From positions 1-64,000 of the forward strand of contig JAGBWK010000072.1 of the NCBI GenBank assembly GCA_017629835.1: 64,000 bases of DNA, written 5' to 3'. The notes beneath the pieces were generated by a model, which worked only from the letters and a program-made list of their open reading frames with translations, searched no databases and had not been told where the DNA came from. Origin of the DNA: Muribaculaceae bacterium. GTDB taxonomy: Bacteria > Bacteroidota > Bacteroidia > Bacteroidales > Muribaculaceae. Made by a program: the position numbers and the translations under genes. Position 1 is the first letter of the stretch, and each line of letters begins with the position of its first letter. Positions 44,851-50,036 of the stretch are shown piece after piece.

Positions 44851-44924
44851 GGGGTATTAGCTCATCTGGCTAGAGCGCGACACTGGCAGTGTCGAGGTGA
44901 GCGGTTCGAGTCCGCTATACTCCA
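44851..44924 (+). tRNA. tRNA-Ala (GGC)
   Basis: The acceptor stem is GGGGTAT/ATACTCC with one G-U pair, the anticodon loop is CTGGCAG with anticodon GGC, and the T-loop is TTCGAGT. The discriminator is A and CCA is not encoded. Confidence 0.94.
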
Positions 44925-44937
44925 CCGTCAACATATC

Positions 44938-45026: not shown

Positions 45027-45034
45027 TATCTTTG
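45027..45034 (+). promoter_or_regulatory. -7 element (TATCTTTG) for the polyphosphate polymerase operon
   Basis: TATCTTTG overlaps the TTG at 45032, so that codon cannot be in the transcript from this promoter. ATG 45044 would be almost leaderless and ATG 45056 would have about 15 leader bases. Confidence 0.45.
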
Positions 45035-45055: not shown

Positions 45056-45820
45056 ATGAAAGATGTTTTAGGAACATACGATAGAATCTCTTTGGAGGAG
45101 ATGAAGGATGTACGGTTGATGAATCGTATAGACACTAAGTATGTGACTACCGTTCCGGTGCTTATTGAAATCCTAAAGCGCGCTAAACCAAACTATTACG
45201 CGCAATTTATCGACGGCGAATGTATGATGCCGTACTATACGCTCTACTACGATACGGAAGATACGGATATGTATATTCAGCATTTGCGAGGGCGAAAGCG
45301 GCGTCAGAAGATTCGCATACGAAAGTATGAGGCGACCAACATTTCGTTTCTTGAGGTTAAGAATAAGAACAATAAGGGGCGAACAAAGAAGAAGAGAACA
45401 GAATATTTGACGCCTAACGAGGACGTATTTACGGCATTCATCACGGAGCATGGGAATTATCCCGTAGATGCGCTGTCGCAGATGATAGAAAATCGATTTA
45501 CAAGGCTAACGTTGGTCAATAAAAATAAGACTGAGCGCCTGACAATAGATACAAACCTTAGATTTCACAATTTAGTTACCCAGCAGACGTGTCGTTTAGA
45601 TGATTTAGTAATCATTGAGCTTAAACGCGACGGCAATACTCATTCTCCTATATTGGAAGTGTTGCGCGAATTGCGAGTTCAGCCTGCAAAGTTTAGCAAG
45701 TATTGCATGGGTATGGCAATAACAAATCCAAAGCTAAAGAATAATAGATTCAAGCCTCGACTGCGATATGTTGAGAAATTGTGTAATATAAATCGAAATA
45801 TAAAATTTAATACAGAATAA
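45056..45820 (+). CDS. VTC-domain polyphosphate polymerase-like protein
   Basis: The 254-residue protein has the triphosphate-tunnel fold of the yeast VTC4 catalytic domain. Visible blocks are NRIDTKYV (about 22-29), the strand YTLYYDTEDTDMY, the basic RGRKRRQKIRIRKY (about 82-95), FLEVKNKN with the metal-binding Glu, RLTIDTNLRF and IELKRDG. The basic and acidic residues would line the tunnel that makes polyphosphate from nucleotide. It is chosen to start at 45056; 45044 is possible. The gene heads a four-gene operon with gaps of 3, 3 and 11 bases. The product in bacteria is not proven. Confidence 0.85.
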   Translation: MKDVLGTYDRISLEEMKDVRLMNRIDTKYVTTVPVLIEILKRAKPNYYAQFIDGECMMPYYTLYYDTEDTDMYIQHLRGRKRRQKIRIRKYEATNISFLEVKNKNNKGRTKKKRTEYLTPNEDVFTAFITEHGNYPVDALSQMIENRFTRLTLVNKNKTERLTIDTNLRFHNLVTQQTCRLDDLVIIELKRDGNTHSPILEVLRELRVQPAKFSKYCMGMAITNPKLKNNRFKPRLRYVEKLCNINRNIKFNTE

Positions 45821-45823
45821 ATC

Positions 45824-46486
45824 ATGGACGAATTGGAACTTTTAGACACTCCGTTGGTGCATACTGGTGATATGTGGCAGTTGCTACTTCGCTTTGCATT
45901 TAATGCGTTCTTTGTGTGGGTAATAATCCATAAGATGTATTATCCAAAGAGTTTGCGTAAGGACTACTACTTCACATTTGCAATGATAAGTGTGAGTATC
46001 TTTTTCCTTATATTCTTATTGGGAAGTGTGAAGATTAAGGTAGGGTTTGCGCTCGGTTTGTTTGCAATTTTCGGCATCATAAGGTATCGAACAGAGTCGA
46101 TGTCGGTGCGCGAGATGACCTATCTGTTTGTTATCATCGCTGTTTCAGTAATCAATGCGCTTGCAGTGACATTGAGTTATGCCGAATTGCTGCTTACTAA
46201 TGTCATATTTTTGCTGTGCATCCGTTTCAGCGAAAACTTGCCATGGCTGAAGCACACTTCAGAAAAGTTGGTGATGTATGACAAAATTGATCTCATTGCG
46301 CCAGAGCGTTACGATGAATTGGTGGAGGATTTGAAGAAGCGCCTCGGACTTCCTATTACTAAGGTTGAAGTGGGCGCAGTTGATTTCCTTCGCGACGTAG
46401 TGATGCTTAAGGTGTATTACGAAGATAATGATGGTAAAGGTAATAGTGTGAATGGAATGTTGAAGTTTCCCAAAGCAAATAGTTAA
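45824..46486 (+). CDS. DUF4956 membrane protein
   Basis: The 220-residue protein has four membrane helices in the first 130 residues (for instance FAFNAFFVWVIIHKMYY and SIFFLIFLLGSVKIKVG), the conserved ALGLFAIFGIIRYRTESM loop and a soluble C-terminal domain. DUF4956 proteins are commonly encoded next to VTC-domain polymerases, as here (3-base gap), so it is a likely membrane partner or channel. No activity is known. Confidence 0.85.
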   Translation: MDELELLDTPLVHTGDMWQLLLRFAFNAFFVWVIIHKMYYPKSLRKDYYFTFAMISVSIFFLIFLLGSVKIKVGFALGLFAIFGIIRYRTESMSVREMTYLFVIIAVSVINALAVTLSYAELLLTNVIFLLCIRFSENLPWLKHTSEKLVMYDKIDLIAPERYDELVEDLKKRLGLPITKVEVGAVDFLRDVVMLKVYYEDNDGKGNSVNGMLKFPKANS

Positions 46487-46489
46487 ACA

Positions 46490-47218
46490 ATGAAAACAAG
46501 AATATTTCTCATAGCTTTAGCGGCCATAGTGTCGTGTCAGGTGATGCAAGCTCAAAGCATTTGGGCATCGGCCGAAGCGAGCGCAAAAATCACAAAAGCG
46601 TTTGGCGTATATGTTGAGGCAGAGTATCGTACTCACGATAAAGTTTCGAGCACTGAGCGTTGGGCTGGAACTCTTGGTTTGGAATACAAGGCGTTGCCAT
46701 ACTTAAAATTGAGTGGCGGATACGCTTACATTCATCAGCATACATTGAAAGAGGTGACCAAAAAGGGGAATATCATACCTCCATATTGGCAGCCCAGACA
46801 TCGCGCATTCTTTGCATTGACAGGTAGCATCGACTGGAATAGATTTTCGTTCTCACTGCGCGAACGCTATCAGTACACCTATCGTACGAGCCAATCAGTG
46901 CCTAAGTTCGACAGCGACGGTGTGACGCCTAAGGCTCCCGAAGAGATAGTAGGCAAGGGCAAGCATATCCTTCGCTCTCGTCTTGAGGTTGAGTATAAAA
47001 TCAAGAAAAGTAAGTTTACTCCGTATATTTCCTATGAGATATACAATTCGCTCACTGACGGTTTTGCTGTCGACAAATCGCGCTACACGATAGGGTCGTC
47101 GTACAAAATCAACAAGAAGCATTCTGTCAGTCTTTACTATCGCTATCAGGATTCTGCCGACGAGGATGATGAAGACTCAGGACATATCATTGGCGTTGGA
47201 TATAAGTTCAAACTATAA
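46490..47218 (+). CDS. DUF2490 outer-membrane beta-barrel protein
   Basis: The 242-residue protein has a signal peptide (MKTRIFLIALAAIVSCQVMQAQ) and alternating amphipathic strands such as FGVYVEAEYRTHDK, FSFSLRERYQYTYR, LEVEYKIKK and YTIGSSYKINKKHSVSLYYRYQ. It ends with aromatic and hydrophobic residues (IGVGYKFKL) as in outer-membrane barrels. It is the third gene of the VTC operon and could connect the system to the outer membrane. Confidence 0.8.
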   Translation: MKTRIFLIALAAIVSCQVMQAQSIWASAEASAKITKAFGVYVEAEYRTHDKVSSTERWAGTLGLEYKALPYLKLSGGYAYIHQHTLKEVTKKGNIIPPYWQPRHRAFFALTGSIDWNRFSFSLRERYQYTYRTSQSVPKFDSDGVTPKAPEEIVGKGKHILRSRLEVEYKIKKSKFTPYISYEIYNSLTDGFAVDKSRYTIGSSYKINKKHSVSLYYRYQDSADEDDEDSGHIIGVGYKFKL

Positions 47219-47229
47219 AGAGAAGAAAT

Positions 47230-49116
47230 ATGAAATTCGGTAAATTATATAAATGTTTGCTGCTCGCTGGGCTGTTGGTAGGTGTCACTGCATGTACACC
47301 GCCGAGTGATGAGCCAGGTGGCGACGATACTCCCGAACAGCCGTCGACTGGTGGCGACGATTCGACCGGTAACGATGGCACAGTCGATGACGGCGATGCA
47401 CCCTCATTCGACACAACCATCGCCGACTGGAATGGCGAAATGGCCGATGATGCCGACAAAGATGTTGTTGGCTCTGACTCAGACATATATTATGAGCGCA
47501 ACAGCTTTACGTCGCTTGTGACAGTAACGTACAATGGCTCAACCGCGCAGGTTGAATCGAGCAACAGCAAGATACGCTGTCACACCTCAGGCGCATACGT
47601 AACGATTGATATGCAAACCAATGCGGTTTCAAAAGTTGAGGTCGTAGTCAGAGGCGAAAGCGACAATGGCGGCTTGAAAATCTATGGCGAAAAGAAATTC
47701 AAACTCACACTCGACGGCGTGAATCTGACCTCGCAGAAGGGCTCTGCTATCAATGTGCAGTGCAAAAAGAATATATTCGTTCATTTGCCCGAAGGCACGA
47801 CCAACTATCTGACTGATGCTGTGACATATAGTGACGATGATTACTATTTGGATTCTTCAATCGTAGAGGACCGAAAGGGTTGTTTCTTCGCTGAAGGCGA
47901 CTTTGTGTTTAGTGGCAAAGGAGTGTTGCTCGTAGCAGGTAAAAATAAGCACGGCGTGGTCAACGACGGCTATTTCTGGATGCGTCCAGGTGTTACGCTT
48001 GTGGTGACTGAGACGGCTAAAAATGCTATCCATGTGAAGGGTAGCGCCAACGATGAAATCGGCGTTTATATTGCTGGCGGTTTGATTTACGCCAACGTGG
48101 CATCACCAGCCGGAAAAGCAATAAAATGCGATATGGATGTAGAGATTGAAGGTGGTAAGCTGATGCTCAACACTTCGGGCGACGCTATCTATGAAGCAGA
48201 GCAATTCGACACATCTTCTGCTGCTGGTATTAAGGCCGACGGTTCAATCTACATTTCGGGCGGCACGCACACGATGAAGAGCACTGGCTTGGGTGGCAAG
48301 GGTATGAATGCTGAGTCGGAAATTAAGATATCAGGTGGCGAAACAACTATCACAACCACTGGTGACAAATATGTTTATTCAGCCAACCTAACCTCTTCGT
48401 CGAAGGGTGTTAAATCGACAGGCAATATCACGATGTCGAATGGCAAACTCAACATCGCTGTGTCGGGCAAAAGCGACGGTTCTGAAGGCTTGGAAAGCGA
48501 CGGCTCGGTGAATGTCAGAGGTGGCGAAATGTATGTTTACGCTTACGATAATGGCATCAATGTTGACATTTCGCTGAGTGTCAGCGGCGGCAAGGTGTAT
48601 GCTTATTCAAGCAATAGCGACGGCATCGACTCTAACGGACAGCTTGTTGTGTCGGGTGGCGTTGTAGTAGCATCAGGCAGCGGCGGCTCAGAGGGCGGTA
48701 TTGATGTCGACAACGGCAACAATTTCAAAATCAATGGCGGAACGGTAGTTGCGTGCGGAGGCTCGTTGCAGTCGGCACCGTCGTCGAGCAGTGCTCAACG
48801 CTCTGTGGCTTACTATGGCATTTCGTATGCTAAGAATCAGCAAGTTGCAGTGTTGGATGAATCGGCTAACCCGGTGTTGGCATTTGAATTCCCTCGCACG
48901 ATACAGAACGGTACACTCTTCTTCAGCAGCCCCGCAATTGCGGCAGACGGCACATACACCATTGAAACAGGTGGCACGTTGACCGATTATACTGATAGTT
49001 GGAATGGCTGGTATGGTGGCGGCACATGGAGCGGTGGCGAACAGATTGCGTTGTTCCAGCCTACGGATGTAGTCACCACGATTGGAGAGCCAAGTATGAG
49101 TGCACCAGTTTGGTAA
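47230..49116 (+). CDS. beta-helical carbohydrate-binding-domain lipoprotein (DUF4353 type)
   Basis: The 628-residue lipoprotein has a lipobox (LVGVTAC) followed by an acidic, Ser/Thr/Gly-rich linker to about residue 60, consistent with surface display. From about 85 to 520 it is built of about 20-25-residue turns with an xISGG-type core (for example ISGGTHTMKSTG, VRGGEMYVYAYDNGI, VSGGKVYAYSSNSDGID), as in right-handed beta-helix carbohydrate-binding domains. It closes the VTC-DUF4956-DUF2490 operon. In relatives a CotH-type kinase often accompanies this set; none is here. Confidence 0.82.
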   Translation: MKFGKLYKCLLLAGLLVGVTACTPPSDEPGGDDTPEQPSTGGDDSTGNDGTVDDGDAPSFDTTIADWNGEMADDADKDVVGSDSDIYYERNSFTSLVTVTYNGSTAQVESSNSKIRCHTSGAYVTIDMQTNAVSKVEVVVRGESDNGGLKIYGEKKFKLTLDGVNLTSQKGSAINVQCKKNIFVHLPEGTTNYLTDAVTYSDDDYYLDSSIVEDRKGCFFAEGDFVFSGKGVLLVAGKNKHGVVNDGYFWMRPGVTLVVTETAKNAIHVKGSANDEIGVYIAGGLIYANVASPAGKAIKCDMDVEIEGGKLMLNTSGDAIYEAEQFDTSSAAGIKADGSIYISGGTHTMKSTGLGGKGMNAESEIKISGGETTITTTGDKYVYSANLTSSSKGVKSTGNITMSNGKLNIAVSGKSDGSEGLESDGSVNVRGGEMYVYAYDNGINVDISLSVSGGKVYAYSSNSDGIDSNGQLVVSGGVVVASGSGGSEGGIDVDNGNNFKINGGTVVACGGSLQSAPSSSSAQRSVAYYGISYAKNQQVAVLDESANPVLAFEFPRTIQNGTLFFSSPAIAADGTYTIETGGTLTDYTDSWNGWYGGGTWSGGEQIALFQPTDVVTTIGEPSMSAPVW

Positions 49117-49124
49117 TCAAAGGT

Positions 49125-50036
49125 TTATTCTATGGTCGTAATGGCCTCACGATAACGGTCGAGAGTGGAAGCTTTGCGAATTGCTTTCAAGCAACGGTGG
49201 CCAATTTCCTCTTCGAGGTAATCCCAAAATGGCTTGATATGTTGCAGAATCTGCGTTTGTCCGCATAGTGTTTGCTCATACTCCGAGAGGAGTCGGTCGT
49301 GAAACTCAAGTAGAGTGGCGATGCGCATGGCGTGTTGCCACTCTTCGTTGTTGCGCCATTCGGTTGCAAGCGACGGACGAGCCAAGAGTCCGCGTCCTAT
49401 CATAATGGCAGCCGCGTTGGTGTGCGCCGACAGGTCGCCGATGTTGCGGATTTCGCCATTCCATACAATAGGGTTGGATGATTGCGATTCGAGTGAGCGA
49501 AACTCATCTATATATAAATCGCCAGAGTACATTTGACGGGCAATGCGAGGATGAATGGCTATGTGGTTAAGTTTTACGCTGCTCAGTAGTGGCAAAAGTG
49601 AGCGCCATTCATCGGGGTTATCCTTGCCAAGTCGCATCTTTACGGAGTAGGATGTGCTGCAGTCGGAGTCGATTTGTTTGACGATTTGCTCCATTGTGGC
49701 GATGTCGGAAATCATCGCTGCGCCTCGCCCTCGATTGGTCTGCATAGGATAGGGGCAGCCGAGATTGAGGTCGATACGATTGAATCCAAGTGTTTTTACT
49801 ACTTCTGTCAAAATGCGGAATTCTTCGAGCGAAGCGAAGATGATTTGAGGCACTAATGGAGTGCCGTCGCCGACAGAGGCTTTCAATCGTGCGATGTCTT
49901 GGCGGCGTGGCTCACCCTTTTCGATGCGTATAAAGGGGGTGTAATAACAATCCACTCCGCCGTAGATTTGGGAGTGGAGTCGTCGATATGCGTTGTCGAC
50001 ATATCCTTGCAAAGGAGCGAAATGAATCTCTTGCAT
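49125..50036 (-). CDS. tRNA-dihydrouridine synthase family protein
   Basis: This FMN enzyme reduces uridine in tRNA D-loops. The 303-residue protein has APLQGYVDNAYRRL at the N-terminus, the catalytic Cys in NLGCPYP (about 92-98), RGRGAAM, the FMN-binding Lys in YSVKMRLG and IAIHPR. It resembles the single Bacteroidetes Dus-like group more than DusA. Convergent with the beta-helix gene with 8 bases between them and probably cotranscribed with ruvB. Confidence 0.9.
   Translation of the reverse strand: MQEIHFAPLQGYVDNAYRRLHSQIYGGVDCYYTPFIRIEKGEPRRQDIARLKASVGDGTPLVPQIIFASLEEFRILTEVVKTLGFNRIDLNLGCPYPMQTNRGRGAAMISDIATMEQIVKQIDSDCSTSYSVKMRLGKDNPDEWRSLLPLLSSVKLNHIAIHPRIARQMYSGDLYIDEFRSLESQSSNPIVWNGEIRNIGDLSAHTNAAAIMIGRGLLARPSLATEWRNNEEWQHAMRIATLLEFHDRLLSEYEQTLCGQTQILQHIKPFWDYLEEEIGHRCLKAIRKASTLDRYREAITTIE

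Follow-up and report, generated by a model that had tools for sequence, protein, structure and literature searches.

The locus described here raises the question of how gut Bacteroidales could place polyphosphate outside the cell. Work on polyphosphate in bacteria has mostly dealt with the internal reserves that PPK enzymes make. In a stretch of 64,000 nucleotides from a Muribaculaceae bacterium (assembly GCA_017629835.1, contig JAGBWK010000072.1, positions 1 to 64,000 of the forward strand; hereafter the window), four genes between positions 45056 and 49116 link a VTC-type polyphosphate polymerase domain to predicted inner-membrane, outer-membrane and surface proteins. We found that this operon is real, recurrent, conserved and coherent. 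As a best explanation we tentatively propose a trans-envelope unit for polyphosphate synthesis and export; to this whole chain we give somewhat less than an even chance, and our confidence in the polymerase step is higher.

The operon and its conservation

The four genes are listed below.

45056-45820, + strand: VTC-type (triphosphate tunnel) polyphosphate polymerase domain protein, 254 amino acids; PF09359, 97.6 bits, profile positions 1-234 of 235
45824-46486, + strand: DUF4956 membrane protein, 220 amino acids; PF16316, 186 bits; candidate inner-membrane translocation module
46490-47218, + strand: DUF2490 outer-membrane beta-barrel (predicted), 242 amino acids; PF10677, 120.9 bits, profile positions 2-182 of 186; candidate outer-membrane conduit
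47230-49116, + strand: Cthe_2159-family beta-helix lipoprotein, 628 amino acids; PF14262, 165.5 bits in five stretches

A sequence-only reading of this DNA had described a compact set of these four genes, and this description was borne out: the open reading frames are intact and separated by gaps of 3, 3 and 11 nucleotides. The gene identities given there are also directly established, each of the proteins matching its family well over the Pfam cut-off when scanned with hmmscan to E=1.

With regard to distribution, we used 149 genomes of the order, which hold 80 VTC loci, 119 genomes of the family and 8 of the genus; neighbour counts and Fisher tests throughout ignore shared ancestry. In the order, VTC was found over cut-off in 74 genomes and DUF4956 in 78, and the two adjoin each other at 79 of the 80 VTC loci (Fisher p=3e-35 for co-occurrence in genomes). 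It is evident that this association is far above chance. DUF2490 adjoins VTC at 33/80 of the order loci, on the same strand every time, and Cthe_2159 at 7/80. The association becomes tighter nearer to the window: in its own family, 26 loci were readable, of which 25 have DUF2490 beside VTC-DUF4956 and 12 have Cthe_2159, and the 80 nearest DUF4956 loci from named genomes carry VTC in 77 cases, DUF2490 in 64, Cthe_2159 in 29 and all four in 28. Thus, the four families do co-occur across genomes, a point on which the sequence-only reading had staked its idea of a functional unit. The operon is nevertheless patchy, being present in 28/119 genomes of the family and, within the genus, in this genome alone of 8. 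Its closest named relatives are metagenome-assembled genomes of Bacteroidales, many of them Muribaculaceae or Bacteroidaceae of animal guts. Among laboratory Bacteroides, B. salyersiae DSM 18765 carries all four genes (L172), and in B. thetaiotaomicron DUF4956 and DUF2490 are listed as BT3498-99.

The tunnel enzyme

A profile built from 25 VTC relatives matches yeast Vtc4 across the whole domain (E=2.4e-13). Invariant in the 25 sequences, numbered from the ATG at 45056, are K28, R87, R89, K102, R150, R161, E188, K190 and K215, whose Vtc4 counterparts are K200, R264, R266, K281, R361, R373, E426, K428 and K458, respectively (numbering of chain 8i6v_E). Vtc4 K458 has been named as the catalytic lysine, and tunnel phosphatases carry Glu in place of four basic Vtc4 residues together with an E-x-E acidic patch (PMC4641920). 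Where these phosphatases have E-x-E, the window protein resembles Vtc4 in carrying E-x-K. All residues compared with Vtc4 are kept; because the aligned residues and the E-x-K pair are intact, the loss of tunnel Lys/Arg and Glu residues, which the sequence-only reading had named as fatal to its proposal, does not apply.

Of the 119 family genomes, 11 have PPK1, and none of these belongs to the 28 that carry VTC (hypergeometric p=0.045, no ancestry correction); across the whole order the two genes occur independently of each other (p=0.5). As judged on PPK1, VTC may thus be the sole enzyme that makes long chains in those 28 genomes. In the literature searched, we found no functional study of a bacterial VTC-DUF4956 pair.

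The window set resembles the yeast VTC complex (Vtc4 with Vtc1/2/3) in its tunnel enzyme family, aligned catalytic residues and tight pairing with a membrane protein. On the other hand, hmmscan of the four proteins to E=1 gave neither an SPX domain nor a Vtc1-type transmembrane domain, the protein paired with it in the membrane has five helices and is unrelated to the yeast partners, and the gene set extends to the outer membrane and the surface. The system can be classed with VTC-type polyphosphate synthesis as a variant that has another membrane module and also parts in the outer membrane.

The membrane partner

DUF4956 had been described as a four-helix membrane protein, and this was not supported: the AlphaFold2 model (predicted local distance difference test score, pLDDT, 83) shows five of them, at 14-43, 47-66, 70-89, 95-116 and 119-137, followed by a ferredoxin-like (alpha/beta) C-terminal domain. 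The loops at 43-47 and 87-95 are basic, so the N-terminus is predicted outside and the C-terminus inside. The RxRT motif of DUF4956 (R87/R89) is invariant, and the predicted topology suggests that these arginines lie at the cytoplasmic mouth. In the yeast VTC complex, the tunnel enzyme is coupled to a membrane channel whose helices, lined with Lys and Arg, draw in the chain (PMC9911596).

A second, divergent class of DUF4956 exists, whose profile aligns with MgtC along its entire length in hhalign (97.9%, E=6.5e-13); moreover, the Pfam MgtC model matches one member of this class with E=1e-4, which is below the curated cut-off of that family. Profile comparison of the window class with the divergent class gave 94% (E=1.3e-7). 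Because of this two-step chain through the divergent class, DUF4956 is best called a remote relative of MgtC by profile comparison. It differs from MgtC/SapB in that the window class is linked to it indirectly only and in that DUF4956 lies nearly always beside VTC. A sequence search of the PDB with DUF4956 gave nothing significant, and with Foldseek and VIA the model had no counterpart in the PDB at good confidence (best Foldseek E 0.17; rows of MscS type and G-protein-coupled receptor type at Z 5-6).

The predicted outer-membrane barrel and a possible alternative exit

The outer-membrane barrel of the sequence-only reading stands as a confident structure prediction: the AlphaFold2 model of DUF2490 reaches pLDDT 94.7, and DSSP assigns 11 main strands and a hairpin. 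The best VIA matches are ties: autotransporter barrels reach Z 15.0-15.5, and the porins VhGalP (for oligogalacturonate), KdgM and NanC reach 15.9, 15.3 and 14.4, respectively. When residues were assigned to the two faces by strand alternation, the lumen of the window protein had 20 basic and 8 acidic residues and the lipid face 0 and 4. The lumen is net basic in 42/43 members, and R47, R57, R105, R124, R162, R164 and R198 are kept in 95-100% of relatives. Such a predicted basic lumen suits a polyanion, and it proves neither the identity of that polyanion nor the direction of its passage. The porins KdgM, NanC and VhGalP also have a basic lumen, and the DUF2490 model resembles them in barrel size and fold (Z 14-16, tied with autotransporter barrels); it differs from them in standing beside synthesis genes, which suggest export.

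At 11/84 loci, all of the divergent class, a gene for a HlyD/MacA-type periplasmic adaptor (profile against MacA, E=1e-8) lies directly upstream of VTC, at 10 of them within about 20 nucleotides.

Divergent-class loci L072-L085 (e.g. L082:7358-8431): HlyD/MacA-type adaptor upstream of VTC, in DUF2490's place

At two of the adaptor loci (L078 and L084), a TolC-type gene is added. DUF2490 was found at 0/11 adaptor loci against 55/73 of the others (p=2e-6), though the classes are related lineages and their loci not independent evidence. The natural reading of this pattern is that one product has two envelope exits, via the DUF2490 barrel or via the HlyD-type adaptor route.

Outside the phylum, three plasmid loci, each a single example, all point to phosphate in their gene content. 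A Pseudoalteromonas plasmid (L255:5279-7657) carries a lamin-tail lipoprotein, DUF4956 and, 1 nucleotide on, Porin_O_P of the phosphate-selective porin family. On a Deinococcus plasmid (L256:5184-11216), VTC-DUF4956 has an acid phosphatase and a phosphonate/phosphate transporter of the phn type in its neighbourhood, and on an Aminobacter plasmid (L257:5992-8304), DUF4956-VTC is followed by a phytase-like gene.

The lipoprotein and CotH

The fourth protein has a clear lipobox (LLVGVTAC). It shares its Pfam family with the Cthe_2159 beta-helix protein, the founding member, which binds polygalacturonate; the window member differs in being a lipoprotein behind a polyphosphate-type operon. Its role and ligand are the weakest step of the model.

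No CotH gene lies beside the window operon, which the sequence-only reading had taken as the sign of a minimal version. This interpretation fails, for linked CotH is a minority arrangement (at least 12/80 order loci, counted from Pfam matches only after a custom CotH profile contaminated by tails of the type IX secretion system (T9SS) was discarded), and the simplest loci are VTC-DUF4956 alone. The usual unit in the family is VTC-DUF4956-DUF2490 with or without Cthe_2159, so that the window holds an elaborated form. The 154-amino-acid proteins at L158 and L162, labelled CotH by the custom profile, are T9SS-tail proteins instead.

Elsewhere in this genome there are three unlinked CotH genes, one of them with a T9SS tail. 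Across the order, CotH is present in 63/74 genomes with VTC vs 30/75 without (odds ratio 8.6, p=1e-8, Fisher). Six of ten CotH proteins scanned carry T9SS tails, and others start with lipoprotein or signal sequences. In Gram-positive pel clusters, CotH, polyphosphate polymerase, DUF4956 and DUF4832 are accessory genes (PMC7112168). The window shares with these clusters the VTC-DUF4956 core, but it lacks pel genes, DUF4832 and a linked CotH, and has DUF2490 and Cthe_2159 added.

Discussion

The mechanism that we propose would run as follows. The cytoplasmic VTC enzyme would polymerise the gamma-phosphate of ATP to polyphosphate in its basic tunnel and pass the chain, as it grows, to the inner-membrane module DUF4956, with RxRT at its predicted cytoplasmic mouth, so that synthesis and translocation would be coupled. 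The chain would then move outward through the basic and conserved lumen of DUF2490, a predicted outer-membrane barrel that may be of the 12-stranded type, and the beta-helix lipoprotein at the surface would hold or organise the polyanion, probably bridged by cations. A unit from cytoplasm to surface that makes polyphosphate and exports or anchors it had been suggested in the sequence-only reading; the idea of such a unit is supported by our results, and the making and the export, like the outward direction and the ligand of the lipoprotein, are what we infer from intact active site, linkage, predicted folds and conserved charges.

Several observations weigh against this proposal. The lipoprotein is acidic (pI 4.4; 77 D+E vs 39 K+R), and binding of polyphosphate would therefore need cations. 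The likeness of DUF2490 to KdgM and NanC is tied with that to autotransporter barrels, and DUF2490 has no KdgM family match in Pfam to E=1. Direct comparison of the window DUF4956 class with MgtC gave 3%, that is, no confident match. The Pseudoalteromonas locus has no VTC gene within the stretch read. Moreover, 18/84 loci have VTC-DUF4956 with neither DUF2490 nor a recognised adaptor; thus, the outer-membrane step is not obligatory, and the pair may work alone.

A different explanation is that VTC-DUF4956 makes polyphosphate and moves it no further than the periplasm, as a store like that of the yeast vacuole, and that DUF2490 and Cthe_2159 take up or bind an acidic glycan (e.g. pectin fragments) and are merely co-transcribed. 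We consider this unlikely, though not far-fetched: besides the loci where the pair stands without DUF2490 or Cthe_2159, the fold of DUF2490 resembles oligogalacturonate porins, and the founding Cthe_2159 protein is described as carbohydrate-binding (Pfam). However, DUF2490 and Cthe_2159 recur behind VTC-DUF4956 at small gaps, with all four at 28/80 loci, and DUF2490 never shares a locus with the HlyD-type adaptor; this repeated linkage and exclusivity argue for one pathway. In addition, among the window genes no pectin genes adjoin the operon (Pfam). It is improbable that VTC is a triphosphatase or a nucleotide sensor, with DUF4956 as an MgtC-like regulatory membrane protein. The tunnel fold does span enzymes of many activities (PMC4641920) and DUF4956 is remotely related to MgtC, but the residues typical of the polymerase have been retained, among them the Lys that aligns to catalytic K458 of Vtc4 and E-x-K where the acidic E-x-E patch would be.

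Exported polyphosphate could alternatively serve as phosphoryl donor for secreted CotH kinases, so that the purpose would be surface phosphorylation and not the polymer itself. Outside the cell there is no ATP for a kinase to use, and the co-occurrence of CotH and VTC in genomes, the export signals on CotH proteins and the grouping of CotH with VTC-DUF4956 in pel clusters all fit. Nevertheless, 11 VTC genomes have no CotH match, 30 genomes have CotH without VTC, and the Fisher test is blind to shared ancestry. We know of no CotH that uses polyphosphate, and regard this explanation as improbable. Returning to the trans-envelope unit, its most extended form would be a polyphosphate secretion system, in which VTC and an MgtC-related translocase feed two interchangeable exits (DUF2490 or HlyD/TolC-type) and surface polyphosphate supplies secreted CotH kinases; that all of this applies together is doubtful, and we offer it as a rather speculative extension.

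What is new here is the remote link between five-helix DUF4956 and MgtC, the predicted basic barrel of DUF2490, its replacement by a HlyD-type adaptor in the divergent class, the co-occurrence of VTC and CotH and the absence of PPK1 from the VTC genomes sampled in the family. If the trans-envelope unit is true, gut Bacteroidales would have a second, VTC-type and export-built polyphosphate route, in a family most of whose genomes lack PPK1, which would answer how they could place polyphosphate outside the cell. It would also give testable roles to DUF4956 and DUF2490, tie the MgtC family to polyphosphate and open a possible energy source for kinases acting outside the cell.

Promoter, flanks and variants of the locus

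A tRNA-Ala gene (44851-44926) with its own hairpin terminator (to 44974) lies directly upstream of the operon, and a Dus gene convergent with it ends at 49125. With these flanks, the operon is a self-contained unit. A promoter candidate was read directly from the sequence.

45027-45034, + strand: putative -7 promoter element TATCTTTG of the Bacteroidetes TAnnTTTG type (tentative)

Direct reading gave no good -33 element at the standard spacing from it. The mechanical list of open reading frames starts VTC at TTG 45032 and the sequence-only reading at ATG 45056; the ATG is preferred because the -7 element overlaps the TTG. In the comparison with empty sites, most members of the genus had nothing closely corresponding to the flanking Dus gene; the source assembly is 74% complete. 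Horizontal transfer at the adjacent tRNA-Ala was considered and set aside, the patchy distribution in family and genus being consistent with it and no proof.

Some relatives show variants of the gene set. In several close ones, a secreted protein of about 150 amino acids with a T9SS-tail-like C-terminal end, absent in the window, lies between DUF2490 and Cthe_2159 (L155:8536-9006, L156, L158, L162, L188, L202 and L210). Two recurrent small secreted proteins precede VTC at 23 order-level loci (e.g. L043:3021-3506, L089:4521-5219), one of about 140 amino acids with no Pfam match and the other carboxypeptidase-regulatory/SdrD-like. In the relative L148 (G229:C134:12427-13074), the VTC frame has one in-frame TAG and may be a pseudogene.

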